Positions 10,033 to 34,660 of a DNA stretch of 34,921 bases are shown piece after piece. The notes below the pieces were generated by a model. It was not told the origin of the DNA and did no database searches. It saw only the letters and a list, made by a program, of their open reading frames with translations. A program made the translations under genes and the position numbers. How positions within the stretch are numbered: the first letter of the stretch is position 1; each line of letters begins with the position of its first letter. Source of the DNA: a virus. The stretch covers positions 1 through 34,921 of IMG/VR virus record IMGVR_UViG_3300037882_000756; one strand, 5' to 3'.

Positions 10033-10653
10033 TCAGGCATTTTTCACCACTGTATGCAGACAGCACAAATTGAAGCCCTCATGGTAGACCGCGTTCTTTT
10101 TGTCCAATACCAATTCACCGTCGATTACCAGCCCGTTCTCATCCAGCGAATTGAGAAACTTTCCCAATGCCACGCCCGGATACTGCCCCAATGGTTTATC
10201 CATGTCGTACTGCACATCGAAGGTTAATATCATCCTGCCATCAGGCTTGAGCAGCCGCGCAAACTCCGCCACGGCATCGCCGATCATGTCGCCCATATCC
10301 TCAAGCACGGATATGCAGAAAATACGGTCAAGGCTGGCCGCCTCGATCTGCTTGATTGGCTGCGTAATGGACGCGATCACGAACTGCATGTTGTCGGCAG
10401 GCTGTTGCTGCATCAAGCGCACATCCAGATCAACGGCATAGACAAATCCGCATATCTCAGCCAGCGCATCCTTGAACGGGCGATACATCCAGCCTGTACC
10501 CATATCCGCCGCCACCTGCGACGCTTCGGCGTGCCCAAGCGCCCAGCCGTACTCATAAGGGCGGCTCCACCATTGCTCGGGCAGTTTCATTCCCGCCACG
10601 ATCTCAGAGCGCTTATCGCTGTACTTGAAGAATCCGTTAGTCTTTGAACTCAT
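10033..10653 (-). CDS. SAM-dependent class I methyltransferase
   Basis: 206 residues. 'VAADMGTGWMYRPFKDAL' is a motif I (G.G) loop, 'CGFVYAVDLDVRLM' gives the acidic residue that holds the adenosine ribose, and 'LDRIFCISVLEDMGDMIGDAVAEFARLLKPDGRMILTFDV' is the standard motif IV-VI strand (LE.....EF.R.LKPGG...). This is the small-molecule/sugar-methyltransferase type commonly found in polysaccharide clusters. The start overlaps the stop of the GT2-like gene by 17 nt. Substrate unknown; a methylated sugar or glycan terminus is the natural inference from its neighbours. Confidence 0.85.
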   Translation of the reverse strand: MSSKTNGFFKYSDKRSEIVAGMKLPEQWWSRPYEYGWALGHAEASQVAADMGTGWMYRPFKDALAEICGFVYAVDLDVRLMQQQPADNMQFVIASITQPIKQIEAASLDRIFCISVLEDMGDMIGDAVAEFARLLKPDGRMILTFDVQYDMDKPLGQYPGVALGKFLNSLDENGLVIDGELVLDKKNAVYHEGFNLCCLHTVVKNA

Positions 10654-11383
10654 TGTTCATCCTGTTCCACCATTGCGGACCGTACCGCGCGGATAATATC
10701 TCCCGCATCTGGTCGCCTGCCTTCGCCTGCCGTTCCTGCGCGGTCATGTTCATGCGCTTCATGCTGTATCCGATGTCCGTCACCTTCTTGACAGGCACGG
10801 ACTCGGAAAGCCATATGGTCTTTTTATCACGCCGCGCCTTCCAGCACGTTTCGAGATCGATACCCCAGGCGTATGTCAGCGCGGGGTCGAAACGACCAAC
10901 GCTGTCGAACCAGTCGGCACGGTACAAACTGGCGATGTTATCCACCATCCATGTCTTTGTCCAGCCCGCGCCCGTCACGCCTTTCATGTGTTCCCATGAG
11001 GTCGTGCTGTCCTTCGTCAAAACAGGATGGCAGGCAACCGCATGATCGTAACTTTCGAAACATTTGAGCATCGGCGTCAGCGGATCACCAGTACCAGGCA
11101 CGAACTCAGCCGATGTGATGATGAACCAATATGCAAAGTACGGCTTTCCATGCTTGCGCGCCAGCGCGTCGGCGTAATGCAGGCCCATCAGCCAGCCGTT
11201 CGTGGTCTGCACGTTCTCATCCAGTCTCAGGGCCGTGTACTTGCTAGGCTTTTTGAGTTCGGAGCCGTTATCGATCACGAACACGTCACACGGACTCTTG
11301 ACATTGGCGGCGATGTACTCCGCCAGCGCGTCAGCGCGTTCGGGCATATTAAAATTCACAATGAAAGCGGCGGTCTTATGCAT
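10637..11383 (-). CDS. Glycosyltransferase, GT2 type
   Basis: 248 residues. It begins 'KTAAFIVNFNMPERADALAEYI', a GT2 start with the 'VNFN' strand. 'DVFVIDNGSELKKPS' is the second strand with the usual D.GS. The expected D.D region is replaced by 'YFAYWFIITSAEFVPG', with no clear DxD. The C-terminal 'VDNIASLYRADWFDSVGRFDPALTYAWGIDLETCWKARRDKKTIWLSESVPV' has the GFD...E.DLC.RA-like acceptor motif of rhamnosyl/hexosyl transferases. So family membership is strong, while metal binding may differ. The next gene in the cassette is the methyltransferase. Confidence 0.83.
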   Translation of the reverse strand: MHKTAAFIVNFNMPERADALAEYIAANVKSPCDVFVIDNGSELKKPSKYTALRLDENVQTTNGWLMGLHYADALARKHGKPYFAYWFIITSAEFVPGTGDPLTPMLKCFESYDHAVACHPVLTKDSTTSWEHMKGVTGAGWTKTWMVDNIASLYRADWFDSVGRFDPALTYAWGIDLETCWKARRDKKTIWLSESVPVKKVTDIGYSMKRMNMTAQERQAKAGDQMREILSARYGPQWWNRMNNEFKD

Positions 11384-11639
11384 GCAAATCCAATTCTTTT
11401 AACTCTTTGCTAATTTCCATATTCTCAATATGGTGATGCGTTACTATAACTATCAACGAATTGCACGATTCGCATTTAAGATATATTGGTTGTATAGTCC
11501 TGAAAACATGAGTGCCATCTTCTTTATCGACAAGATACTGCCCGACAATTCTCTGTGAAACCTGCGAGGCGCAATTATCGCAAATACCCTCATGCTGGAA
11601 TTGATATAAGTTTCCTCTTATCAAATTACAATCACACAT
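11376..11639 (-). CDS. Small zinc-ribbon-like protein, AT-rich insert in glycan cassette
   Basis: 87 residues, overlapping both neighbours by 8 nt. Cys pairs CDC, CDNC and CESC are spaced like a zinc ribbon or rubredoxin knuckle (CDNCASQ... and LKCESCNSLIV). The rest is charged, with an HHH run. Its DNA is clearly AT-richer than the flanking glycosyltransferase genes, suggesting later acquisition. No function is evident. It may be a small regulator or a metal-binding accessory protein. Short CxxC proteins recur throughout this phage. Confidence 0.65.
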   Translation of the reverse strand: MCDCNLIRGNLYQFQHEGICDNCASQVSQRIVGQYLVDKEDGTHVFRTIQPIYLKCESCNSLIVIVTHHHIENMEISKELKELDLHA

Positions 11640-12873
11640 TTACACTCACCCGCTTTCCCGTCATATCACGCACGGCGGCCAGTTCCTTTTCGGCGGCTTC
11701 GTCATCTTCTTCCAGTTGCTTGAGGAACGGCAGCCAATAACGATTTACAACGGTATCCGCGTCATAGTCCAAAGCGCCCAGCCGCGCCTTCGTCCTGTAT
11801 TGCGGATTACCACGCTTGCTGTATGCCTGTTCCAGCGCGTCCACTATCGCCCCCACTCGCGGGGTGAATTGGAACGCAGCCAGCGGCGTCCAGACGGGTT
11901 CGCTTTCCTCTTTCGGTATCTTCCACCCGCTGAAACACAGTTCGCCCATGGCCGTCCAGTCCCCCACTATGACCGGAGCGCCGCATGCCTGCGCCTCCAC
12001 AATCGGGATGCCGAAGCCCTCGCCTGTCGAAGCCAATAGATGCACGTCCATCAATGAATACAGGTTGGCGAGATAGGATTTTGGATAACCGAGGTAGTAA
12101 CTGTATTGATCGGGGAAAAATACATCCCTGCCGACCTCCAGCCCCATCAGCGTACAGAACTCAGGCAGGTTGACGCCGTTGTATTCCCCGTTCTCGCTTC
12201 GGCTGGTATGCAGGTACAGCACCGCGTCGCGGTGCTTGCGTTTGAACTCGATGAAGGCCTGGATGTTCTGCGTAAACGCCTTGCGGCTTGGAGCGCCCTT
12301 GTTTGCGGCCACCATGCCGACGATAAAGGCATCCTCGGGCAATGGCGTACCCGCCCGTTTCAGCTTGTCGAAACTTTCAGCGCGGTCCTGCGGCTGTAAT
12401 ATCTTTGTATCCACCGCGTGCGGGATGTAGTGATAATCCAATCCCGCCTGCTCCATCATCTTCGCGCCATGTTTGGAGAATACAATGCGCCTGTATGCGC
12501 GTTCCACTGCCACTTTGACGAACTGCGGCAGCGGTTCCGAATCGACGGGGAAATAGGGTATCCAGCGGATCTTCAACTCCCGCACACTGTCAAAGAACGG
12601 ACTGTTGTTGAATACCCAGGCGTCCACCAAAGAAAACAGGTACTTTGCTCCATACTGTTTGGTATGCGCGGCGGCGATGTCCTGCCCGTAGTCCTGGTGT
12701 CCTTTCGGGAATACAGGCATGCCCTGCCATTGCAGGATGCCGCCATGCAGTCCGTAAAAAGCAATGATGGCGGGGTTATGTCCCGCCTCCCTGATGTGTT
12801 TCAGGAACAGGGCGGTTTGATCGCCATATCCCGTACTCGCCCAGGGCGCGTTGGAAAGCCATGTAAATTTCAA
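11632..12873 (-). CDS. Glycosyltransferase family 4-like (GT-B fold)
   Basis: 413 residues, the first gene of the sugar cassette. The N-terminal half opens 'KFTWLSNAPWASTGYGDQT', a GT4-type Gly-rich acceptor loop. 'YIPHAVDTK' (about 150-156) is the linker motif ('P.GVD'). Residues 181-200 start the C-terminal Rossmann domain (FIVGMVAANKGAPSRKAF). 'STGEGFGIPIVEAQACGAPVIVGD' (282-305) is the E-x7-E donor-binding motif (E285, E293). The enzyme should transfer a sugar from a nucleotide donor with retention. The acceptor is unknown. It lies downstream of the decoration protein, separated by about 100 bp containing an inverted repeat. Confidence 0.92.
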   Translation of the reverse strand: MKFTWLSNAPWASTGYGDQTALFLKHIREAGHNPAIIAFYGLHGGILQWQGMPVFPKGHQDYGQDIAAAHTKQYGAKYLFSLVDAWVFNNSPFFDSVRELKIRWIPYFPVDSEPLPQFVKVAVERAYRRIVFSKHGAKMMEQAGLDYHYIPHAVDTKILQPQDRAESFDKLKRAGTPLPEDAFIVGMVAANKGAPSRKAFTQNIQAFIEFKRKHRDAVLYLHTSRSENGEYNGVNLPEFCTLMGLEVGRDVFFPDQYSYYLGYPKSYLANLYSLMDVHLLASTGEGFGIPIVEAQACGAPVIVGDWTAMGELCFSGWKIPKEESEPVWTPLAAFQFTPRVGAIVDALEQAYSKRGNPQYRTKARLGALDYDADTVVNRYWLPFLKQLEEDDEAAEKELAAVRDMTGKRVSVNV

Positions 12874-13387: not shown

Positions 13388-14251
13388 TTATGAAGTGGGT
13401 GCGGTTGCGTCAAAGATCATCTGGACGCCGCGTGTGGGTCGCCATACGCCATGAGCGTACACCGCCGACATATTGAACTCGGCACCGCGCCGCGATTCGT
13501 CCCGTTCGGGGCGGATACGGATGGCGCGCCGCCAATCCACTGCCAGCGCCTCACGCGGGAATACCCCGCCTGTGAAGTCGTCACTGGCATCGGGCGCGGC
13601 AAATACCTGGTAAATGGGAACGCCCATGAAGTTGAACGCCTTGCGGATGCCCTGCCGTGTAACTTCCTCGGTCACGCCGGGAGCCTGCGCCAGGGTAGCG
13701 CCTGCAATCGAGGCGGTCTTGGCAAGCACAGCGGCCTGGTATCCGTGAATGACGGCGCTCAGGGGTTTGGTCGCTGTCTTGTTGGCGTTGCGGGCCTGTG
13801 CGATGGCAGCCGAGACATATCCCCATGTGATCACGGTGCCGGCTGCGCCGACGGTCCCGCCCGTCAATGAGGCGATATCGCCGACAAGATCGGTTTCGAC
13901 CTTATCCAAAGCGGCATAGCCCAACTCGAGCGAAGCGTCGCGGATGATGTTTTCGGGGGCGTCTGACTCTGCGCGCAGATCGGTGATGAAGAACTGCAGA
14001 CCGATCTCGGCAGGCGTCAGGGTTTGATCCGCGGAAGGCGTAAAGCTGTCCGAGGTCAGGTCGTCGGCCTCGCCAATGCTCTTGGCAACGCCTTGATTGT
14101 ATTTGTACCCGACACGAGGATTTCCACCGCTGGCGTCACGGAAGTTCTGGATCAGACCTTGCATCTGTCCCAGTTCGCGCACGACAAAGATGGCGTTATC
14201 CTGTATGTCTTGGGCGATCCCTGAAAGATCGCCGTAAAGGTTAAGTGCCAT
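13388..14251 (-). CDS. Major capsid protein
   Basis: 287 residues with a good AGGAG. The sequence runs from an N-terminal helix (GDLSGIAQDIQDNAIFVVRELGQMQGLIQNFRD) to 'SASLELGYAALDKVETDLVGDIASLTGGTVG', then the 'SAVIHGYQAAVLAKTASI' spine helix, and a C-terminal A-domain 'AAPDASDDFTGGVFPREALAVDWRRAIRIRPERDES' ending 'RPTRGVQMIF'. This is an HK97-fold coat protein of the short N-arm P22/N4-gp56-like type. In that type R..I..RPERD.SR...E and a final G....W are typical. The gene lies directly after the scaffold and before the decoration protein. The order and the length agree. Confidence 0.85.
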   Translation of the reverse strand: MALNLYGDLSGIAQDIQDNAIFVVRELGQMQGLIQNFRDASGGNPRVGYKYNQGVAKSIGEADDLTSDSFTPSADQTLTPAEIGLQFFITDLRAESDAPENIIRDASLELGYAALDKVETDLVGDIASLTGGTVGAAGTVITWGYVSAAIAQARNANKTATKPLSAVIHGYQAAVLAKTASIAGATLAQAPGVTEEVTRQGIRKAFNFMGVPIYQVFAAPDASDDFTGGVFPREALAVDWRRAIRIRPERDESRRGAEFNMSAVYAHGVWRPTRGVQMIFDATAPTS

Positions 14252-14294: not shown

Positions 14295-14810
14295 TTATCC
14301 ACCAAAGAGAAACGTTCTCCGGTCCTCGTCTGTCACGCCTTTGGTCTGTGCCTCGGCGGGTGACGATGGCGGGGCGCTGGCGCGCTTTGCCTTCGGCAGG
14401 CTTTCCAGCAGCGCCTTTGCATCGCTTTCCAACTCCTCAGGCGTCGCGCCTTTCAGTCGATCAGCAAACGCAAGCGGCAGCCCCACTTTCTCGGCTGCGT
14501 CCCTCTGGTGTTGCTTTCTTTCGAACTCAGTGGCCTTCTGTAAGGCTTCGTCGCGCTCGGCTTGCAGGCGTTCCGTCTCGGTCATCTGCGCCTTCTTGCG
14601 CTCCTGTTCCTGCCTATCATAAGATTCCACTTTCTTGTGAAGCCTTGCGGCCTCGTCGCTTTTGTTGGCTAGTTTCTTTTCAGCCTCCGCCAGCCGTGCC
14701 TTGAGTTCCTCGGGCGTCTCGCCCTTGACTTCCTCATGCACCTGCTCGGCAGCCTTTTCGACCGCTTCGCCTTCGGGCGTCTCGCCCTCTTTCTTGGTTT
14801 CTTCTAGCAT
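14295..14810 (-). CDS. Capsid scaffolding protein
   Basis: 171 residues from the ATG at 14810 (MLEETKKEGETPEGEA). GGCGGCG lies just before the start, and the longer upstream reading lacks coding character. The body is almost entirely charged helix (EELKARLAEAEKKLANKSDEAARLHKKVESYDRQEQERKKAQMTETERLQAERDE). This is the pattern of phage scaffolds that template capsid assembly and exit before DNA packaging. The C-terminus carries a capsid-binding-like basic tail near 'LFGG'. It precedes the major capsid gene, with a promoter-like site and a structured leader upstream. Confidence 0.88.
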   Translation of the reverse strand: MLEETKKEGETPEGEAVEKAAEQVHEEVKGETPEELKARLAEAEKKLANKSDEAARLHKKVESYDRQEQERKKAQMTETERLQAERDEALQKATEFERKQHQRDAAEKVGLPLAFADRLKGATPEELESDAKALLESLPKAKRASAPPSSPAEAQTKGVTDEDRRTFLFGG

Positions 14811-14835
14811 CTCGCCGCCTTTCCTGGAAACGCAA

Positions 14836-14888
14836 AAAGCGGCCACTCGCAACAATCTCATTTTGAGACTGTCACAAGTGACCGCTTT
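14836..14888 (-). promoter_or_regulatory. Nested inverted repeat in scaffold 5' leader
   Basis: Arms AAAGCGGCCACT (14836-14847) and AGTGACCGCTTT (14877-14888) pair with one mismatch, and inside them TCTCA/TGAGA (14856-14860, 14864-14868) form a second hairpin. The region is downstream of the promoter-like TGATAAAAT and upstream of the scaffold start, so it would be transcribed as a structured leader. It could be an operator, an attenuator or an RNA structure. I do not recognise it as a known riboswitch. Confidence 0.6.
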
Positions 14889-14955
14889 CGCGCTTACCTG
14901 TTTATTGCCGCTGCCCTGCATCACGCGGGGCGGGCGGGTCTATTTAGTTTTGACT

Positions 14956-15017: not shown

Positions 15018-15046
15018 TTGACACGTTGTATAACTCGTAGTAAGAT
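15018..15046 (+). promoter_or_regulatory. Sigma70-type promoter for the IbrAB-like block
   Basis: TTGACA (perfect -35, 15018-15023), a 17-base spacer, then TAAGAT (-10, 15041-15046, four of six consensus matches). The first gene follows with an AAAAGGAG site and an ATG at 15095. A plus-strand promoter inside a minus-strand phage is strong evidence that the block is an independently expressed cargo. Confidence 0.75.
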
Positions 15047-15094
15047 AGGGGTGTAAGTTAATACGTGGTATCAACAAATCAAAAGGAGATTGCA

Positions 15095-15307
15095 ATGAAA
15101 GATATAGCCATTACCCAAAGATTTACAAACAGATCTAATTACTACCTATTGCTCGGCGATACGCAAACAATAATCCTCGCTGGCACAAAGGAAGAATGTG
15201 AAAAAGCATTCAACACAATCGAAATCGGATCGTCAAAATATGGCGGCGTGGAAGTAGTTGCTCCAGGTGAAAGCGTAGAGAGCGACATGCTTGTACCTGT
15301 GAAATGA
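15095..15307 (+). CDS. Hypothetical protein, first gene of cargo block
   Basis: 70 residues from an ATG with a good AAAAGGAG. A start at 15065 would precede the ribosome site. The sequence has alternating strand and helix segments (RSNYYLLLGDTQTIILAGTKEECEKAFNTIEIGSSKYGG) and an acidic C-terminus. No known family is recognised. Its stop overlaps the start of the next gene by four bases, so it is translationally coupled with it. Codon composition is AT-richer than the neighbouring phage genes. Confidence 0.7.
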   Translation: MKDIAITQRFTNRSNYYLLLGDTQTIILAGTKEECEKAFNTIEIGSSKYGGVEVVAPGESVESDMLVPVK

Positions 15308-15732
15308 AAGCAACTCTCAAAGTTGAAGCGATTGGAGATAATACCTTTCAATACATGCAACTTTGGACAGGCATTTTGAACGATGGTGCGACAGGTCTCG
15401 GAGACGCGATTGGCGCACCAAAGCCTGATTACTGGAGCGCAATGATTGTAGGTACTGATCCGAAATTCGGATATTCTCGCCAATTTCTAAAAGCAAAGAA
15501 AGATTATAAAAAAGCAAACAGCAAAGGCTCGCGCGGCGTTTTCCTTTGGTACATTCTTGAAAGCGGTTATGTTTATGAAGTAAGCGCGCCCAAGAACTGG
15601 AAGAAAACAGAGCGATATTTTTGCACAGTCACAGATGATGGAGAAATTCAGCGAGTTGATAAGGAATTTGTAAACCAATGGATAAAAGATCACTCGGTAT
15701 CACAACTTACGAAGCCGCAAAACAACGAATAG
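15304..15732 (+). CDS. Hypothetical protein of the IbrAB-like block
   Basis: 142 residues. The start overlaps the upstream stop (ATGA), and the 3' end overlaps the PAPS-reductase-like gene by 55 nt, so the three are probably co-translated. The sequence has an N-terminal beta-type part (KATLKVEAIGDNTFQYMQLWTG) and a basic middle (KAKKDYKKANSKGSRGVFLWYILESGYVYEVSAPKNWKKTERYF). A DDGE..RV..EF turn precedes the C-terminus. No catalytic motif can be named. The overlap and order suggest it works with the IbrA/B-like pair, but this is an inference. Confidence 0.6.
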   Translation: MKATLKVEAIGDNTFQYMQLWTGILNDGATGLGDAIGAPKPDYWSAMIVGTDPKFGYSRQFLKAKKDYKKANSKGSRGVFLWYILESGYVYEVSAPKNWKKTERYFCTVTDDGEIQRVDKEFVNQWIKDHSVSQLTKPQNNE

Positions 15733-16880
15733 AATATGTTTTCGACACGTTCCCGAAAATTTACCTTTCTTTTTCTGGCGGGAAAGATTCAACCGTCATG
15801 TTGCATTTAGTAATGGCGGAAGCAATCAAACGCGGTAAGAAAATAGGTGTGCTGTTTGTGGATTTGGAAGGGCAATATAAACTCACGATTGACCACATCC
15901 AAACTTGCTACGATATGTACGCCGAACACATCGAGCCTTATTGGGTCGCTTTGCCTATCCATCTGAGAAACGCCGTCAGCCAGTATCAGCCGCAATGGGT
16001 TTGCTGGGAACGCGGGAAAGAAGAAGCGTGGATTAGAAATCCGCCAGAGATGGCAATTAATGACGATAATTATTTCCCGTTTTTCAGAAACGCAATGGAG
16101 TTTGAAGAATTTGTCCCTGCGTTCGGTCATTGGTACGGACAAGGAAAATTGACGGCTTGTTTTGTTGGCATCCGCACAGATGAAAGCCTAAATAGATGGC
16201 GTACCATTGCCAGCGGAAAGAAGCAAACGATTGACGGCCATATGTGGACAACGTGGTGCGGCGAAAGTCTCTATAACGCTTATCCGATTTATGATTGGAA
16301 AGCAAAAGATATTTGGATTTGGCAAGGACGCAATCCAGACAAGCCATATAACAAACTCTATGATCGCATGCATCAAGCAGGGTTGACGCTCCACCAAATG
16401 AGAATATGCCAACCATACGGCGACGATCAGCGCAAAGGTTTATGGCTGTTTCACATCATCGAACCTGAAACATGGGGCAAGATTGTAGCCCGTGTGAATG
16501 GTGCAAATCAAGGAGCTTTGTATGCTCAGGAAATTGGAAATATTCTTGGAGTGAATAAAGTGTCTCTTCCGCCTGGACACACGTGGGAGAGTTTCGCAAT
16601 AATGTTGCTTGATACACTTCCCCCGAAACACGCAGAACACTATAAAGATAAAATCGCCGTTTTTTTGAAATGGTATCAAGACAGAGGTTATCCAAATGGC
16701 ATCCCCGATGATGGCCCGCTGGACAAATCTGCTCCAAGTTGGAAACGAATTTGCAAGGCGCTTTTGCGGAATGATTACTGGTGCAAGGGATTATCTTTCA
16801 GCCAACACAAATCCGAAGCATACGAGAAATATACAAAATTGATGAAGCGAAGGAGACAGGAATGGAAACTCATGATTTAG
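15678..16880 (+). CDS. ibrA: PAPS-reductase-like protein (IbrA/YbdN family)
   Basis: 400 residues. SGGKDST at 33-39 is the PP-loop that binds ATP or PAPS in the phosphoadenosine-phosphosulfate reductase superfamily. It is followed by FVDLEGQYKLTIDH. The C-terminal half (about 220-400) is the long DUF3440-type extension of YbdN/IbrA, with 'ICQPYGDDQRKGLWLFHIIEPETWGKIVARVNGANQGALY'. The enzyme is unlikely to do assimilatory sulfate reduction, since the catalytic ECG..H C-terminus is absent. In E. coli this family is always paired with a ParB-like partner, as here. IbrA/B were found to activate prophage genes for immunoglobulin-binding proteins. The reaction is unknown. The gene symbol is by homology. 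Confidence 0.85.
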   Translation: MDKRSLGITTYEAAKQRIEYVFDTFPKIYLSFSGGKDSTVMLHLVMAEAIKRGKKIGVLFVDLEGQYKLTIDHIQTCYDMYAEHIEPYWVALPIHLRNAVSQYQPQWVCWERGKEEAWIRNPPEMAINDDNYFPFFRNAMEFEEFVPAFGHWYGQGKLTACFVGIRTDESLNRWRTIASGKKQTIDGHMWTTWCGESLYNAYPIYDWKAKDIWIWQGRNPDKPYNKLYDRMHQAGLTLHQMRICQPYGDDQRKGLWLFHIIEPETWGKIVARVNGANQGALYAQEIGNILGVNKVSLPPGHTWESFAIMLLDTLPPKHAEHYKDKIAVFLKWYQDRGYPNGIPDDGPLDKSAPSWKRICKALLRNDYWCKGLSFSQHKSEAYEKYTKLMKRRRQEWKLMI

Positions 16881-17380
16881 ATTGGACGAAACAGCACCCA
16901 GTTTCTTTTGTGGAATGGGTTCCATCCGACAGAATTCATGCCAATGACTATAATCCGAACTCGGTCGCAAAGCCTGAAATGGAACTGCTTAAACTGTCCA
17001 TCCTTGAAGACGGATTTACTCAGCCGGTTGTTGTTTGGCAGAATGGTGACGAATATGAAGTAGTTGATGGTTTCCATCGTCATTTGGTTGGAAAGGAAAT
17101 TGGACTTACTCATTTGCCCGTTGTTGTTGTTAACGCCGGACGTACTGACCGATCAGATCGCATTGCATCCACCATCCGCCATAATCGGGCGCGTGGTAAG
17201 CATCAGGTAGGGCAGATGTCTGAGATCGTGCAAGAGCTATCCCGTCGCAATTGGAGCGACCAGAAGATAGCCAAAGAGCTAGGCATGGAGCCCGATGAGG
17301 TTTTGCGCTTGAAACAAATCTCTGGTCTTGCTGATTTATTTGGAGATGATGATTTCTCCGAAGCATGGGAGATTGTATGA
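16862..17380 (+). CDS. ibrB: ParB/Spo0J-like protein (IbrB/YbdM family)
   Basis: 172 residues from an ATG at 16862 with GGAGACAGG before it. The start at 16781 would run through the partner gene. The N-terminus has the ParB nuclease-like fold: 'VEWVPSDRIHANDYNPNSVAKPEMELLKLSILEDGFTQPVVVW' and 'YEVVDGFHRHLVGKEIG', then 'IRHNRARGKHQVGQMSEIVQELSRRNWSDQKIAKELGM', whose last part is a helix-turn-helix. ParB-type proteins bind DNA and often CTP. It overlaps the PAPS-reductase-like gene by 19 nt. The ibrA-ibrB order and composition match the E. coli ybdN-ybdM pair. Function is gene regulation or DNA modification, still unproven. Confidence 0.85.
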   Translation: METHDLDWTKQHPVSFVEWVPSDRIHANDYNPNSVAKPEMELLKLSILEDGFTQPVVVWQNGDEYEVVDGFHRHLVGKEIGLTHLPVVVVNAGRTDRSDRIASTIRHNRARGKHQVGQMSEIVQELSRRNWSDQKIAKELGMEPDEVLRLKQISGLADLFGDDDFSEAWEIV

Positions 17381-17550
17381 CGCAAAAGAAACGTAAGCAT
17401 AACCCGAAGTGGAAAGACAGTACACGCACAAAAAGGAGTGACAAGCGCAAAGAGGAAATGCAAGCCGCCGCCGAACGTGACGGTTTTGCAACTTGGAGCG
17501 GAGCGATTACAGCGTGGAAAAATGGCGAAGCCGTATTAGTTAGGAAGTGA
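17377..17550 (+). CDS. Small basic protein, last gene of the block
   Basis: 57 residues starting with an ATGA overlap on the IbrB-like stop. The N-terminus is very basic (QKKRKHNPKWKDSTRTKRSDKRKEE), then a helix and 'FATWSGAITAWKNGEAVLVRK'. It could be a nucleic-acid-binding accessory. No family is recognised. Its 3' end meets the minus-strand tail-to-tail with no obvious terminator between them. Confidence 0.6.
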   Translation: MTQKKRKHNPKWKDSTRTKRSDKRKEEMQAAAERDGFATWSGAITAWKNGEAVLVRK

Positions 17551-17596: not shown

Positions 17597-17806
17597 TCAT
17601 ACGCCTTTCTCCTGTGTTTTGGATAGTATACCCGCGATGGTATCAGACGGCAATATATTCACGGCCTCCATCCTGCTCCCGATGTCGAACTGCCGTTCTA
17701 TCACCGCCACCTGCTGCAATAGCCCGTCCCGCTGCAATTCCAGCGCCCGCACCTGCTTCAATAACGCCGCCCGTAGTTGTATCCAGTATTCTCTCTCTGT
17801 CATCAA
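17597..17806 (-). CDS. Small coiled-coil protein downstream of MuF
   Basis: 69 residues beginning with an ATGA overlap onto the head morphogenesis gene. It is a helical protein with heptad-like hydrophobics (YWIQLRAALLKQVRALELQRDGLLQQVAVIERQFDIG). It does not match a family I know. Its place in the head operon suggests a minor structural or assembly factor. Confidence 0.65.
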   Translation of the reverse strand: MMTEREYWIQLRAALLKQVRALELQRDGLLQQVAVIERQFDIGSRMEAVNILPSDTIAGILSKTQEKGV

Positions 17807-18792
17807 TTCTCCAGCAAGTCTTTGAGACTGCGCTCGAAGCGCATCTCACCGTAGACGGGATCAACGTGCGTCCCCGTCATGTCGCTAATGCGAACCTTGC
17901 CCGCCTGCCATGCGTCCCATTTTGTTTTGCCCATCATCTGTATCTGCACCGCCTTCGACTGCTTCTCGAACCACGCCTCACCCGCCTGCGCTATCGGGTT
18001 ATCGTCGCCCAGGTACGGCAGCATGGTACACAGCCCGTTATGATGGTCGTTGAGTATCTCATCCAGTCCGTGTATCGTGCCGTGCATATTGACGCACGAC
18101 ATACAGGTGCGGCCTGGTATCAATGCGCTGGACCAGACCCAGCCTTTCACGATGTCGCTGTTCTCCTGATAGTTCGCCAGCGTCGCCTCACGGTAGGCAT
18201 ACAGTTGCAATGTGCGTGCCATCCGCAGCGCGTCCGTCAGGCCGAAGCCGAAGCCGAGATCCACGATGCGCCGCGCCAGTTCGCGCGGGTTCAGCCCCAG
18301 CGCCACGCTCTCCAATACCACCTGCTTGATACGGTCGGCGTTGGTCTTGCCGTATTGCAGCAGCCGCGCATACAGCGGCGATCCCTCGTCAAGATAGCGG
18401 TTCAACGCGGCTATCACCTCGTCATCGATACTGGTAATATCGCCCGCCTCCACGCCTGCATCCGCCGCCGCCTGCTGTAAAAGGATGTTGGAATTGGTCA
18501 CGCCCAGCGTCACGAACAGGCCCGCCGTCAATGCCAGTTCTTCCAGCAGGTACTCGGAATACTCCTGCAAGGCTTCATCGGCGCGGCGGATCAGCCGTTT
18601 GTAACTGTCCAACTCCGCCAATGTTTTGGCAGTGAATTCGCCGCCCGCCATCTCAAGGCTCAAGGCGTCTATGTCGCCCTCAAGATCGTCCACCATTGCC
18701 TGGTACGCATTTGTCAGGCGTTCCAGTTCGGCGGCGTCCTGTCTTTCAACGGCGTCACGCAGTTGGCGGGATAGGGTGTATATATCTGGCAT
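17803..18792 (-). CDS. Head morphogenesis protein, Mu gpF/SPP1 gp7-like
   Basis: 329 residues. The first 200 are helical. Residues 226-260 read 'PGRTCMSCVNMHGTIHGLDEILNDHHNGLCTMLPY', with C230, C233, H237, H250/251 and C255. This is the Cys/His cluster and the final 'H..C.c...P' that define the Mu gpF minor head domain. Such proteins join the capsid interior near the portal, and some carry toxin fusions. Here the C-terminus after the domain is short and shows no toxin. It overlaps the portal stop by one base and the next gene by four. Confidence 0.92.
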   Translation of the reverse strand: MPDIYTLSRQLRDAVERQDAAELERLTNAYQAMVDDLEGDIDALSLEMAGGEFTAKTLAELDSYKRLIRRADEALQEYSEYLLEELALTAGLFVTLGVTNSNILLQQAAADAGVEAGDITSIDDEVIAALNRYLDEGSPLYARLLQYGKTNADRIKQVVLESVALGLNPRELARRIVDLGFGFGLTDALRMARTLQLYAYREATLANYQENSDIVKGWVWSSALIPGRTCMSCVNMHGTIHGLDEILNDHHNGLCTMLPYLGDDNPIAQAGEAWFEKQSKAVQIQMMGKTKWDAWQAGKVRISDMTGTHVDPVYGEMRFERSLKDLLEN

Positions 18793-20213
18793 TAGCGCCT
18801 ATTCTGTCCAGGCGGCAATCCGCGATTGAAGTTTTGCAGCACAAAGCCGCCGACGTTCTCGTTGTTGGCGTTGGCTTCCTCGCGTTCCGCCGCTATGCGT
18901 TCCTCTTCGTTCTCGTTGTCATAACCGCGCTTGTCGCGTATGGTCTGCTTGCTGACAATACCCTGCTCAAGGTCGAACTTGTACGCCTGTACCAGTTCGT
19001 TCTCATCCTGCGGCAGCGGGTCATGCCATACGATCTCGCCCGCGTCAGGCTCCATGTCATTCAGCACCAGCAGGCGCCTGTTCAACTCCTGCAATGCCTC
19101 GCCGTACAACCGTCGCTTGGTTTCCAGCTTGTCTATGCTGTCCTTGTAAAGCACCCGCAAGCCGAAGTTCGTGATCTGCCCGACCTTATCCTTGATGCTG
19201 CGGGGGTCGGTGCTGCGCGATATGGTGAACATGGCATCGCGTAGTTCGTTCTGGAAGGCGATCATGCCCTCGAAGTTACTGCCGGCGTCTATGGCGTTCA
19301 GTTCCGCCTTCTCGTTATCCACCGACAATATCCGATCCATACCCAGCATGATCGGCTTGCCCTGCCCGAGGAACTTACCCCAAAGCCGCTGGAAGGCGGT
19401 CAGGCGGATGGCCTTGTTCGTGCTGGACACCACGCGGTTGATCGCGTCCTGTAACTGCAACACGTCGGGCGTCAGGTCGGGGCGTCCGTACTGGCTGCCC
19501 GCCTCAGGCATGTTCTTTAAATGCAGGATCGGCGGGAATGGATACTCCCATGCGTCCGTGCCTTCAAGCACCATCATGCCGTTCTCGTCCTGTAACCAGT
19601 TCACGATCTGCCAGGCAGTGATCATTTCCACGCCGTCCGTCTCATCCGCCTGCTTGACGGGGATGATCTCGCGGCGGCGGGTGCGGCTGATGTTGTCTAT
19701 CACAATGCGGTATTCGATGACATACTTCGCCACGCGGCGGTAGTTCTCAGGCTCGGTCACGATCTTGACAAAGCGCGGGTCGAGCGTGTTGATCTCAGGG
19801 TATACCTCGCCCTGTTCCACCACGCCGTCAGGGTTGATGTAGAAGTATGCCGTGCCGTAGGTTGCCCCGTAGTCGGCAATGTCTATCAATAGTTCGTGTT
19901 TCTTGTTGGCCTTCCAGACCGCATCGACGTAGACCTGTTCGGGCGGTTCGCCGTCGCCGGGCAGGTCGAACTCGACACCTGCGCCGAACAATAGCGCGGC
20001 GGCGCGGTCCACCAGCAGGCCAGTGAAGTTGACCACCACATTATCGTCCGTGTTGCCGGCCAGCGTCTTGATCGTCCTGGGTTGCTCGCCCTGCCTGTAT
20101 TCGTGCGCCTTGTTCATATCCACGCGGCGGGTATCGTTCTCCCAATCCAGCCCGAATATCGCTCCCTGTATGCGCTCCTCGATCCAGTGGTTTATATTGT
20201 CAAATATTCCCAT
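18792..20213 (-). CDS. Portal protein, SPP1 gp6-like
   Basis: 473 residues. Portal features include 'LVDRAAALLFGAGVEFDLPGD' (wing), 'DYGATYGTAYFYINPDG', 'ILHLKNMPEAGSQYGRPDLTPDVLQLQDAINRVVSSTNKAI' (the LQD.iN...S stem), a ring helix 'FEGMIAFQNELRDAMFTISRSTDPR', and a highly acidic clip near the C-terminus (NENEEERIAAEREEANANNEN). Twelve copies form the DNA entry channel at one capsid vertex and the docking platform for terminase and connector proteins. It sits just downstream of the large terminase, before MuF. Confidence 0.94.
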   Translation of the reverse strand: MGIFDNINHWIEERIQGAIFGLDWENDTRRVDMNKAHEYRQGEQPRTIKTLAGNTDDNVVVNFTGLLVDRAAALLFGAGVEFDLPGDGEPPEQVYVDAVWKANKKHELLIDIADYGATYGTAYFYINPDGVVEQGEVYPEINTLDPRFVKIVTEPENYRRVAKYVIEYRIVIDNISRTRRREIIPVKQADETDGVEMITAWQIVNWLQDENGMMVLEGTDAWEYPFPPILHLKNMPEAGSQYGRPDLTPDVLQLQDAINRVVSSTNKAIRLTAFQRLWGKFLGQGKPIMLGMDRILSVDNEKAELNAIDAGSNFEGMIAFQNELRDAMFTISRSTDPRSIKDKVGQITNFGLRVLYKDSIDKLETKRRLYGEALQELNRRLLVLNDMEPDAGEIVWHDPLPQDENELVQAYKFDLEQGIVSKQTIRDKRGYDNENEEERIAAEREEANANNENVGGFVLQNFNRGLPPGQNRR

Positions 20214-20221
20214 GCCTCACC

Positions 20222-21574
20222 TCACCAATCCATTGCGGATATGTCAACCATTTCGGTCTTGGTTGTGCCGATTAGTTCCTCAAGATACCTGCGCGCGTCC
20301 ATCGCGTGATCGTTTTCCTTCTGCGGCTCGTCCTTGACGATGCCTGTGGATGTCACCTTTTTCCAGACGTATGACTCGTATTCGTTGATCGTGTTGATAC
20401 AGGACGGGTCAACTGATTCCCTCGGCAGTCCATCACCCTGCACCTTGAGCCTGTCCTGCATCCGCTGGATGCCGTCCAGTACACGTCCCTTTGCGCCGAT
20501 GGCTGGCAGCCCCGCATCCAGTAATTCAGCGACCAACCCCGCTGCCGCCGCGTCAACAGAAACAAGGCTGACTTTGAGCGCCTTGTTCTTGGCCTCGATT
20601 TCCGTATCGCCCAGCGACAGATAATAAGCGACGCTTTGCTCATACACCCAATCACAAAACTCTTTGGCCTTCTCGACCACCGTGCTTTGCAGTTTGCCGC
20701 GCTCGTACCATTCTTTGAAGGTGTGGGTGCGTCCGTCGCTGTCCTCGCCGACCAGCAGGATCACGGCGGGGTTGGTGTACCCTTCGTCCATCGCCAGATA
20801 CCATGCTTTCATCTCTGAAAAACTGCGTACCTTGACATGCACAGACGGGTCGAATTGGTCATATACCGCGCCTTCCGCCGTTGCCCATATACCCTCGAAT
20901 AACCTCTTGCGCCTCACGCCCGTCAACGCTGCCAGTTGTGCCATTGTCCGCTCCCCCTGCCTTGTCAGTTCCCCTGTGGACGGATCGTAAAGCGTCGGGT
21001 TATCCCTGTGTGTCGTGTGTATCAATGTCAGGTGGCCGACTTTTGACCGCTGTCGTATCCAATGAAGCGATCCAGCAGGATTGCAGTCACCGTATAACTG
21101 CGGATGCGGAATAACAGAACCGCGTCCAGTAGTACGGGTGGTCAGGTATTCCCAATCGTCAACGCTGAACTCCTCAGTCTGACATGCTTGAATAAAATCA
21201 CGCTCCGAAGATAAGACGCGATCCCTGTTATCCATGCCGCCGACCCATATCACCGAGCCGTTCGGGTAAACGTACTTCTCAGGCTTTTCACCGCCGTATT
21301 TTCGCACAGGCGAGTCGGCTATCACCCTCTCGAATGTCTGCAACACAGACCCGTAAATGCTGGTCTGTGTCTTACGCACTATCGCTCCTTGTGTGCCTGA
21401 ATACTTGGTACATAGCAGGTGAGATTTCCAGCAGGCAGCCAGCGTCTTGCCTGTTTCCGCAGCGCCTTCCAGTATCACCTCGGGGTCATGGCAATACATA
21501 AATTCATAATTGCCGCCGTAGGGGATGAAGTCGGCTACCTCAAGGTCAGGCGAGTATTCGATTGTATACGTCAC
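20222..21574 (-). CDS. terL: Large terminase subunit (ATPase-nuclease)
   Basis: 450 residues, the motor that packages DNA and cuts concatemers. Walker A GAAETGKT at 37-44, an acidic Walker-B-type CQTEEF near 131-136, and coupling region 'LYGDCNPAGSLHW' (160-172). The nuclease domain has MDEGYTNP (D263), SVDAAAAG (D341) and NDHAMDARRY (D422, D426) as the metal-binding carboxylates of the RNase H-like fold. Its ATG overlaps the small subunit stop. All catalytic motifs are intact, so it should be active. The packaging mechanism (pac or cos) cannot be told from this alone. Confidence 0.96.
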   Translation of the reverse strand: MTYTIEYSPDLEVADFIPYGGNYEFMYCHDPEVILEGAAETGKTLAACWKSHLLCTKYSGTQGAIVRKTQTSIYGSVLQTFERVIADSPVRKYGGEKPEKYVYPNGSVIWVGGMDNRDRVLSSERDFIQACQTEEFSVDDWEYLTTRTTGRGSVIPHPQLYGDCNPAGSLHWIRQRSKVGHLTLIHTTHRDNPTLYDPSTGELTRQGERTMAQLAALTGVRRKRLFEGIWATAEGAVYDQFDPSVHVKVRSFSEMKAWYLAMDEGYTNPAVILLVGEDSDGRTHTFKEWYERGKLQSTVVEKAKEFCDWVYEQSVAYYLSLGDTEIEAKNKALKVSLVSVDAAAAGLVAELLDAGLPAIGAKGRVLDGIQRMQDRLKVQGDGLPRESVDPSCINTINEYESYVWKKVTSTGIVKDEPQKENDHAMDARRYLEELIGTTKTEMVDISAMDW

Positions 21575-30994: not shown

Positions 30995-31172
30995 TGTCTT
31001 TTGCCTTTCTTTTCTGTTCCAGTCTTTCCATATTGAATAAATACGAGTTACTAACCCTTATCTTACACCGAAGGCAGTATGACCTGGATATATCTTGCGG
31101 CTTGCCTGTGGTGCGATAGATATTGACGAGTCTCTCACCACATTGCGGGCAGTGAAATCTAGTGTCTCTCAT
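30978..31172 (-). CDS. Zinc-ribbon mini-protein
   Basis: 64 residues overlapping the methyltransferase stop. FHCPQCGERL and YCLRCKIRV give two CxxC pairs about 20 residues apart, a classical zinc ribbon, followed by a basic helix (MERLEQKRKAKDNGN). It may bind DNA. Confidence 0.72.
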   Translation of the reverse strand: MRDTRFHCPQCGERLVNIYRTTGKPQDISRSYCLRCKIRVSNSYLFNMERLEQKRKAKDNGNNL

Positions 31173-31941
31173 CGTTCCCTGCCTTCGCCTGCATGATGCA
31201 ATTACCGATAAACTCCGCCACTTGGGGAACTACGGCGATTCCGAGGCTTCTAAGTCTGTCCACCCTTGCGGAAACCCCATGATCCACTCCGCAAACTCTG
31301 GCGGCATTTTCCCAACTGTATCCAGTGGCTTGAACCCATGCGCCCACATTCGGGCGTCCCTGAATTGCTGGGTGATATGTGTTTGCCTGCGCTCCAGATA
31401 ATGCTTGTAAGAAGTCTTTAGTGAATATCTCTCCGCAATTATCATACCGACTAGCGGGGTAGCCCACAATGAAAACTCTCTCTCGTGTGTGAGATGCACC
31501 AAAGAGTAGCGCTGAAACACTCTGCCATTCTGCATGATACCCGCTTTCGCCCAAGTCCCTGAGAACCTTTCCGAAGAATTGCCCATTGTCGCTTGATAAA
31601 AGTCCTGGTACGTTTTCAGCCAGTATCCATTTTGGTCTAATCTCGCAAATGATTCTGTGGTATTCAGTCCAGAGAGTTGTTCTTTTGCCTTCAAGCCCCG
31701 CCCTGTTTCCTGCGAGACTGACATCCTGGCAAGGGAATCCTCCACAAACAAGGTCTGCTGTTGGTAGATTGTGTTTTCCGACATCACGCACATCCTTATA
31801 TTTTGGGACATTCGCCCAATGTTTTTTAAGTACCTTTTGGCAGAAGTCATCAATCTCGACTTGGGCGACACACTCCATTCCCGCACGTTCCAAGCCCAAA
31901 TCAAGACCTCCAATTCCCGCAAACAATGATATAAACTTCAT
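31159..31941 (-). CDS. Cytosine-C5 DNA methyltransferase (orphan)
   Basis: 260 residues with all core motifs: I 'FISLFAGIGGLDLGLE' (residues 4-18), IV 'CGGFPCQDVSLAG' with the catalytic Cys71, VI 'ILAENVPG' (109-111), VIII 'SHTRERVFIVGY' (150-160), and X 'LGIAVVPQVAEFIG' near the end. It is short for this family, so the target-recognition region is small. No restriction nuclease lies next to it, so it is an orphan, probably protecting phage DNA from host restriction or regulating transcription. Target sequence cannot be read out. Confidence 0.95.
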   Translation of the reverse strand: MKFISLFAGIGGLDLGLERAGMECVAQVEIDDFCQKVLKKHWANVPKYKDVRDVGKHNLPTADLVCGGFPCQDVSLAGNRAGLEGKRTTLWTEYHRIICEIRPKWILAENVPGLLSSDNGQFFGKVLRDLGESGYHAEWQSVSALLFGASHTRERVFIVGYPASRYDNCGEIFTKDFLQALSGAQANTYHPAIQGRPNVGAWVQATGYSWENAARVCGVDHGVSARVDRLRSLGIAVVPQVAEFIGNCIMQAKAGNDERH

Positions 31942-32753: not shown

Positions 32754-32963
32754 TCATTCTGCGCGCGGCGCGTTTTCGCCGCTTGTTTTCATGCCGCTCC
32801 ACGCGTAGAGCATATCGCGGGCCAGCGTTAGTTTCTGGTTGACATCCTGATAGACCAGTTCCATCAGTTCATTCCGTTGCTGATAGGTCAGTTCCGGACA
32901 ATCACGGATATTCTGGAGTATCTCGTGCGCTTCGTCGGTCAGTTCGCGGATGGTGGTATTCAT
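32754..32963 (-). CDS. Small helical protein
   Basis: 69 residues, coupled by ATGA to the primase-helicase. The sequence is helical and acidic ('RELTDEAHEILQNIRDCPELTYQQRNELMELVYQDVNQKL'), of no recognised family. Probably an accessory of replication by position. Confidence 0.6.
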   Translation of the reverse strand: MNTTIRELTDEAHEILQNIRDCPELTYQQRNELMELVYQDVNQKLTLARDMLYAWSGMKTSGENAPRAE

Positions 32964-34660
32964 GCTAAATCCTTTCGTTTGAGCCAGTCAGGGATATTCC
33001 TATCATCTGTCTTTTTCAGTTCCCTGAATTTAGGGTTGGGTGTTTCGCGCATGTAATTGATCGCGCCGTTCGGGACGTGGTAATCCAGTTCGCGTCCCTT
33101 TTTAATATGCAGGGTGGCGATCTTGTCATATTCAGACGGCATAATGGAGGTGTCTCCATTCCTCTTCTCGTTGAACTTGGTTAGGATATAGATCACATCC
33201 GCGTCATGAAGCTTCTTTGAACTCCCACTGACATTAGATTTTGTAACATGTTCGCTGACCGAATCCATGCCCATTTTGTTGACCGAGGATACCAGCAGGA
33301 TGGATACATTAAGTTCGCGCGCCAACTGTTTCAGGCCGCGGCTGATGTTCTGTGACTGCTCGATCTCGCTTTGTCCGGGCGCATTGATGAGCCAGTCGTA
33401 GTCAAAAACGACCTGCTCGACCCCATGTTCTCCGATCTCGCGTTCCAGCATCGGGCGAACGGATTTCAGATCCAGCGGCGCATCCGAAACATAAATCGGG
33501 GAATTGACGATAAGCGCCTTTGCCTCGGTGAAAAATTGCCAGTCGGTATCACTCATTTGGCCTGTGAGCATGTGACGTTTGGGAACTCCGAGCATCTCGA
33601 AAAAGCGGCGGAATACCTGTTTGCGCGGCATCTCCCCGGACCAGACCAGGACGGGGGTTGATGGGATTTTCTTTTTCGGCGACCCAAGCGCCGTAAATAA
33701 AGCATCCTGATGCGCCCACCATGATTTTCCCACGCCCGGCTCGCCCGCAAGGATGATCAATTCCCCCGCCTGTTTCCCGCCCGTTATCAGGGAGAGAAAA
33801 TCCCATGCGTAATGAATGCCCCATACATCGACCGGGTTCCTTTGCCGTTCTATGATCTCCGCTTCCAATTTTTCGATCACGTCCCAGGCATCGGGTATCA
33901 CGGCCGTTACGACCGGCTCATCCTGAGGCTGATAACGCGCTACCGAACGGGCGATCTGCAATACCTCGCCGTCGTGCAGCGGAGGGGAACACCGTTTCTG
34001 GTTGTGTATCAATAATGCCTGATAAATCGCATCCTCGTCAAATCCCTTGCGGCGCATCGCGCCGGCCATTTTCGTGAGCGCGTTATTACGCTCGCCACTG
34101 ACAAAATTGCCCGTCCCCGGCTGAGGCTCTGAGATAACATTTTTCTCGCGCAACAATTCGATCATCCATTCGGGCATGGGAGCAAACGATGATGTTGACG
34201 GGGGTTTCACCCATTCGTATTTTTTCCCGTTAGGGTGGATGGATGGAGGGGCGACCACATAACCGCCATCGCCGCGGATGTCCAGTCCACGTCCCAATTT
34301 ACCGGCACTGTTTCGTATTTCAAAACCCGGATGCTGAAAATAAATATGTTCACCGCCGCTCCCTGTCAATACAACAGGCGTTTCAGGCAGACGCCCATAA
34401 ACATCCTGTAATGTTTGCAAACTCTCATAGCCGTCGTGGTCGAGATCGACATCCAATACCACGATCCCCGAGCGCTTGCCGGTTGCTATGGCAATATTGG
34501 CGGTCGGGTTGGTATCCCACCATCCCAAGAGCATGTTATCCTCGGTGGTGGCAACGTCCGCCCATCGGACAAGCGGGGTCTTGTCATGCGGTTTGCAGGG
34601 GAAGGACTGCATACCACCAACGGCATAGGAACGGGCAAAATCGATCGTGTCTGTGATCAT
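32960..34660 (-). CDS. Primase-polymerase/DnaB-like helicase fusion
   Basis: 566 residues. The N-terminal prim-pol domain has the D70-V-D72 metal site (VVLDVDLDHDG), SGGEHIYF (H105) and GRGLDIRGDGGYVVAPPSIHPNGK (124-146). A middle PriCT-like region follows ('ERNNALTKMAGAMRRKGFDEDAIYQALLIHN'). The C-terminal half is a RecA/DnaB-type helicase core with Walker A GEPGVGKS (306-313), 'LVWSGEMPRKQVFRRFF' and a Walker-B-like 'VVFDYDWLI' (D419, D421), plus 'VSILLVSSVNK'. The enzyme should prime and unwind DNA at the phage origin. It is the main replication gene of this window. Confidence 0.93.
   Translation of the reverse strand: MITDTIDFARSYAVGGMQSFPCKPHDKTPLVRWADVATTEDNMLLGWWDTNPTANIAIATGKRSGIVVLDVDLDHDGYESLQTLQDVYGRLPETPVVLTGSGGEHIYFQHPGFEIRNSAGKLGRGLDIRGDGGYVVAPPSIHPNGKKYEWVKPPSTSSFAPMPEWMIELLREKNVISEPQPGTGNFVSGERNNALTKMAGAMRRKGFDEDAIYQALLIHNQKRCSPPLHDGEVLQIARSVARYQPQDEPVVTAVIPDAWDVIEKLEAEIIERQRNPVDVWGIHYAWDFLSLITGGKQAGELIILAGEPGVGKSWWAHQDALFTALGSPKKKIPSTPVLVWSGEMPRKQVFRRFFEMLGVPKRHMLTGQMSDTDWQFFTEAKALIVNSPIYVSDAPLDLKSVRPMLEREIGEHGVEQVVFDYDWLINAPGQSEIEQSQNISRGLKQLARELNVSILLVSSVNKMGMDSVSEHVTKSNVSGSSKKLHDADVIYILTKFNEKRNGDTSIMPSEYDKIATLHIKKGRELDYHVPNGAINYMRETPNPKFRELKKTDDRNIPDWLKRKDLA

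Follow-up and report, generated by a model that had tools for sequence, protein, structure and literature searches.

An island of five plus-strand genes in this virus encodes homologues of IbrA and IbrB together with a protein of a third family, X, and our analysis suggested that X, ibrA, and ibrB act as one unit. The window, meaning the whole stretch of DNA that was analyzed, is a 34,921-base IMG/VR virus record. By its gene layout, the island is almost certainly a phage cargo operon, in which a carrier holds X-ibrA-ibrB. For the function, we propose by analogy with known systems that X-ibrA-ibrB is a mobile three-part nucleic-acid modification cassette, a reading to which we give a probability of about 0.4. 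The features of the island and its surroundings are as follows.

13388-14251, minus strand: major head protein
14295-14924, minus strand: head scaffolding protein (phrog_233, E=2.5e-10)
15018-15046, plus strand: putative promoter, TTGACA (6/6), 17 bp, TAAGAT (4/6)
15021-15038: operator-like near-palindrome ACACGTTGTATAACTCGT with two mismatches to ACACGTTRTAYAACGTGT, which overlaps the -35 box and spacer
15095-15307, plus strand: first carrier gene, 70 residues, no family, varying between phages
15304-15732, plus strand: family X, 142 residues, partner of this IbrAB clade, overlapping ibrA by 55 nt
15678-16880, plus strand: IbrA/YbdN homologue, 400 residues, PP-loop (SGGKDS) PAPS-reductase-like domain and DUF3440
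16862-17380, plus strand: IbrB/YbdM homologue, 172 residues, ParB/Srx-like domain with a DGFHR motif
17377-17550, plus strand: last carrier gene, 57 residues, basic
17597-17806, minus strand: 69-residue ORF between the MuF gene and the island
17803-18792, minus strand: MuF-like head morphogenesis protein (PF04233, E=1.5e-7)
18792-20213, minus strand: portal
20222-21574, minus strand: terminase

The ORF listing placed the five island ORFs (70, 142, 400, 172, and 57 residues), with successive overlaps of 4, 55, 19, and 4 nt, between the MuF-like and scaffold genes. All head and packaging genes of the window lie on the minus strand, opposite to the island, and the G+C content of the island was 0.42-0.48 vs about 0.55-0.60 in the flanks. 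The first-pass annotation had described five overlapping plus-strand genes, an opposite-strand cargo with an IbrA/IbrB homologue pair, and AT-richer DNA between MuF and scaffold, and all of this held up. Elsewhere in the window, a DNA methyltransferase gene was found at 31159-31941 on the minus strand (phrog_363, E=4e-79), so the phage has a second DNA-modification gene outside the island. A DnaB-like helicase/primase gene is located at 32960-34660 (minus strand), and two minus-strand ORFs adjoining the head genes (10637-11383 and 11632-12873) resemble glycosyltransferases by translation alone.

The promoter had been called perfect. Its location, -35 box, and 17-bp spacing were confirmed, but the -10 box TAAGAT matches at only four of six positions, and such sites alone were not above chance (7 found vs 4.5 expected in shuffles). 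The palindrome ACACGTTRTAYAACGTGT was perfect in L005/L007/L020, L008/L022, and L207, and nine viral contigs contained an exact copy of TTGACACGTTRTAYAACGTGT, in which a promoter box is joined to the palindromic putative operator. The putative promoter is thus conserved in other phages. Downstream of TTGACACGTTRTAYAACGTGT came a first gene that varied and, in every contig of sufficient extent, a 57-like gene; contig L219 stops just after the promoter. Two of the nine contigs carried X-ibrA-ibrB, L212 carried a methylase-like gene, and the rest were without ibrAB. A 57-like last gene without ibrAB was found in L207/L213, L211, L215, L214/L218, and L212.

The small genes had earlier been regarded as possible missing parts of the IbrAB system. 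This idea was borne out for the 142-residue gene, which belonged to an ibrA-ibrB locus in 20 of 20 cases, but not for the two outer genes. The 57-residue gene has relatives without ibrAB, placed last in the same carrier, and the first carrier gene differs from phage to phage; for the 70-residue gene, the loci yielded a single weak relative, in L036, and the viral-contig scan yielded none. Because the carrier occurs without ibrAB and its first gene varies, neither outer gene is specific to ibrAB. Judged from these arrangements, both belong to the carrier, in which an operator-promoter precedes a first gene that varies, cargo may follow, and a 57-like gene comes last; some phages have the carrier without any cargo. 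The cargo of L212 resembled a C5 DNA methylase (PF00145, E=6e-4, 19.7 bits vs a Pfam cut-off of 22) and is a single case. With either X-ibrA-ibrB or a DNA-methylase-like gene as its cargo, the carrier makes modified DNA the thing to look for. In L207/L213, the carrier sits inside a transposon-like element with 29-nt terminal inverted repeats, which we take to be IS1595-like from its transposase. At L207:3645-5590, this transposase, apparently interrupted, lies within the 29-nt repeats alongside the carrier promoter and 57-like gene. The window island was rejected as an IS1595-type transposon, as neither terminal inverted repeats nor a transposase was found in the window.

Profile searches matched IbrA to DUF3440 (E=7e-36), PAPS_reduct (E=4.5e-14), and phrog_2302 (E=7e-83), and IbrB to ParB_N (E=3e-9) and phrog_2159 (E=3e-67). 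The identity was 46.5% over 402 residues between IbrA and E. coli YbdN and 51.7% over 178 residues between IbrB and YbdM. By domains and full-length similarity, island genes 3 and 4 are true homologues of IbrA/YbdN and IbrB/YbdM; the earlier assignment of the pair was therefore confirmed, and the gene order matches E. coli ybdN-ybdM, as had also been stated. A search of about 50,700 phage records found IbrA-like genes in at least 216, and ibrA/ybdN-type genes occur in nearly all E. coli genomes. The dN/dS values against relatives were 0.03-0.04 for IbrA, 0.065-0.07 for IbrB, and 0.19-0.22 for X, which indicated that all three are real coding genes and that X evolves faster than its neighbours. 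In the alignment of relatives, IbrA had more than 60 near-invariant columns, and IbrB was without the canonical ParB CTPase motif GERRxRA, the position reading DGFHR.

The PAPS_reduct match would fit auxiliary metabolic genes for sulfur assimilation with a true PAPS reductase, and phage IbrA homologues have been annotated as such (PMC10434257). This explanation is highly improbable. The catalytic cysteine motif ECGxH of CysH was present in none of the 99 IbrA relatives, and IbrA scored 25.8 bits, far below the NCBIfam CysH cut-offs of 154 and 254. Since IbrA keeps the ATP-binding PP-loop but is without the CysH motif, plain PAPS reduction is unlikely. As to the conserved Fe-S cysteines that characterise DndC, no cysteine of IbrA was invariant in 12 relatives, but in 100 relatives, C244 was conserved in 96% and C109, C161, C359, and C369 in 79-87%.

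TilS-type PP-loop enzymes change tRNA by adenylation, and the features of IbrA, a PP-loop protein with no cysteine invariant in the 12 relatives, are compatible with TilS-like chemistry. The cassette could therefore modify tRNA and shield phage translation from host defences that target tRNA. We regard this as unlikely: the best family matches of IbrA were PAPS-reductase-like and that to TilS reached only E=0.005, no RNA-binding domain was recognised, and the tRNA scan found no tRNA genes in the window. PAPS-reductase-like proteins also occur in Dnd and in BREX type 4 (PADLOC match; PMC12839542), and an opposite-strand cargo with its own putative promoter and operator would suit a defence gene set, by which a putative prophage would keep other phages out of its host, for instance by acting on their DNA or nucleotides. 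However, the PADLOC matches to the cassette were partial and covered the PP-loop only, and no nuclease or toxin gene was recognised in the cassette, so that a defence role is improbable. A full-length match of IbrA to DndC was likewise absent (TIGR03183, 21.4 bits vs a cut-off of 290.4).

The association of X with the pair was strict. A search with X alone against viral contigs and bacterial genomes yielded 20 loci, all with ibrA directly downstream and then ibrB, and 31 of 32 X genes overlapped the start of the IbrA match. By this gene context, this IbrAB clade has X as its dedicated third component. DNA similarity to L007 (87.8%) spanned 15303-17424, from the start codon of X into the 57-residue gene, so X-ibrA-ibrB moves as a block. 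Against L020, the window gave a dS of 0.10 for X, 0.79 for ibrA, and 1.20 for ibrB. X of L020 is thus far closer to that of the window than are the adjoining ibrA and ibrB, so that X was apparently exchanged on its own by recombination. The structure of X was predicted to be mixed alpha/beta (AlphaFold2 pLDDT 88.8); all structures were template-free single-chain predictions. Among solved folds, there was no match to the predicted structures of X or of Y, the alternative family described below, which ruled out assigning a function to X from structure, and the matches of X in the viral structure library were uncharacterised proteins. In L026 (1787-2596), L028, and L030, X carries about 130 extra residues at its C-terminus, which belong to no clear family. 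No description of X or Y was found in the literature on ibrAB-type genes, subscription papers being outside the search.

Most close relatives lack X and carry Y beside ibrA, usually directly upstream. Y is one family, predicted with high confidence to be all-helical, and a search with Y alone returned 80 loci, all 80 with ibrA. In four loci, IbrB ends in a fused Y, whereas Mycobacterium phage Gaia and Pseudoalteromonas phage XCL1123 have Y downstream of ibrB. In these two phages, an ectoine-synthase-like cupin was fused to IbrB (Gaia, L121:4308-5207) or stood between ibrA and ibrB as a gene of its own (XCL1123, L122:4308-4700). Among 116 loci, X was found in 32, Y in 64, neither in 20, and both in none; the corresponding numbers for 105 IbrA clusters at 90% identity were 26, 59, 20, and 0. 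These loci were selected by IbrA, which favours close relatives, and come mostly from metagenomic contigs that offer flanks of 3-6 kb, so that the counts would miss a partner encoded farther away. X and Y were rejected as one diverged family, since hhalign found no similarity and the predicted folds are mixed alpha/beta vs all-helical. On a quick IbrA tree with moderate branch support, the distribution of X and Y required at least two changes; either X and Y would have replaced one another more than once, or the root of the tree would fall between them. The occurrence of a third gene from X or Y, never both, near nearly every close IbrA-IbrB pair suggests a three-part machine. The third gene is not universal: E. 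coli ibrAB and ybdNM had no X or Y nearby, and both families were also absent from the tested Streptococcus, Lactobacillus, Fusobacterium, and Flavobacterium phage loci. Five of these phage loci adjoin a helicase. Over all loci, a helicase was near five of the 20 without X or Y but only six of the 96 with either, and it was rejected as a general partner. In addition, 12 cassettes contained an acetyltransferase-like gene, some alongside X, others alongside Y, and that in L011 alongside neither; no match supported it as a relative of Mu Mom.

Activation of prophage eib genes in E. coli is the only reported function of IbrAB (Sandt 2002, cited in PMC7649339), and ybdNM adjoins the regulator gene citR. 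Both points would fit a gene regulator that switches on phage or host genes, with IbrB as the DNA-binding part, IbrA as the sensor or producer of a small molecule, and X tuning the response. Nevertheless, a conserved 400-residue PP-loop enzyme with that many near-invariant columns would be unusual for a regulator, and the recurrence of the acetyltransferase-like gene also argues against this role, which we hold to be rather unlikely.

We therefore return to nucleic-acid modification. Known DNA-modification systems, Dnd and Dpd among them, use proteins of the ParB superfamily and PAPS-reductase-like proteins (PMC11662687, PMC12839542, PMC12707154), and our proposal follows the plan of phosphorothioation, namely a PP-loop protein, an NTPase, and a DNA-recognising part. 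The Dnd/Dpd-type parts, the recurring acetyltransferase, the methylase-like alternative cargo, and the missing CysH motif make modification the likeliest reading. In the proposed mechanism, the PP-loop of IbrA would activate a group on a nucleic acid (or nucleotide) by ATP-dependent adenylation, IbrB would contribute nucleotide binding of the ParB/Srx type, and substrate binding or the choice of target would fall to X or Y. The resulting nucleic-acid modification would either shield the phage genome or change the host; the role of the cassette is possibly anti-restriction. More tentatively, and with considerable doubt, a widespread phage system for nucleic-acid modification might have IbrA-IbrB as its common catalytic core, in which an exchangeable X or Y sets the target or product, with unrelated folds swapped in one slot. 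A required-looking third gene in two alternative forms could explain why IbrA-IbrB resisted study, and X-ibrA-ibrB offers a defined three-gene unit for expression, which makes the function testable.

Compared with known systems, the window resembles Dnd/Ssp phosphorothioation (DndC, DndB) in pairing a PP-loop PAPS-reductase-like protein with a ParB-superfamily partner. Unlike DndC, its IbrA lies below the DndC score level and has no cysteine invariant in 12 relatives, though several are well conserved in 100, and counterparts of DndD and DndE were not recognised among the cassette proteins. E. coli IbrA-IbrB and K-12 ybdN-ybdM share both proteins and their order with the window but are without X and Y and have other surroundings. 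Chlorobiaceae phage CV-1-33 (MT192033) shares the order X-ibrA-ibrB, with one small gene on each side, whereas tblastn matched neither of these outer genes (124 and 73 residues) to the 70- and 57-residue genes of the window. Pseudomonas phage Amjad_SA and Microcystis phage Mwe-JY13 (Y-ibrA-ibrB or ibrB-Y-ibrA) encode homologous IbrA and IbrB, but their third gene belongs to the unrelated family Y, where the window has X.
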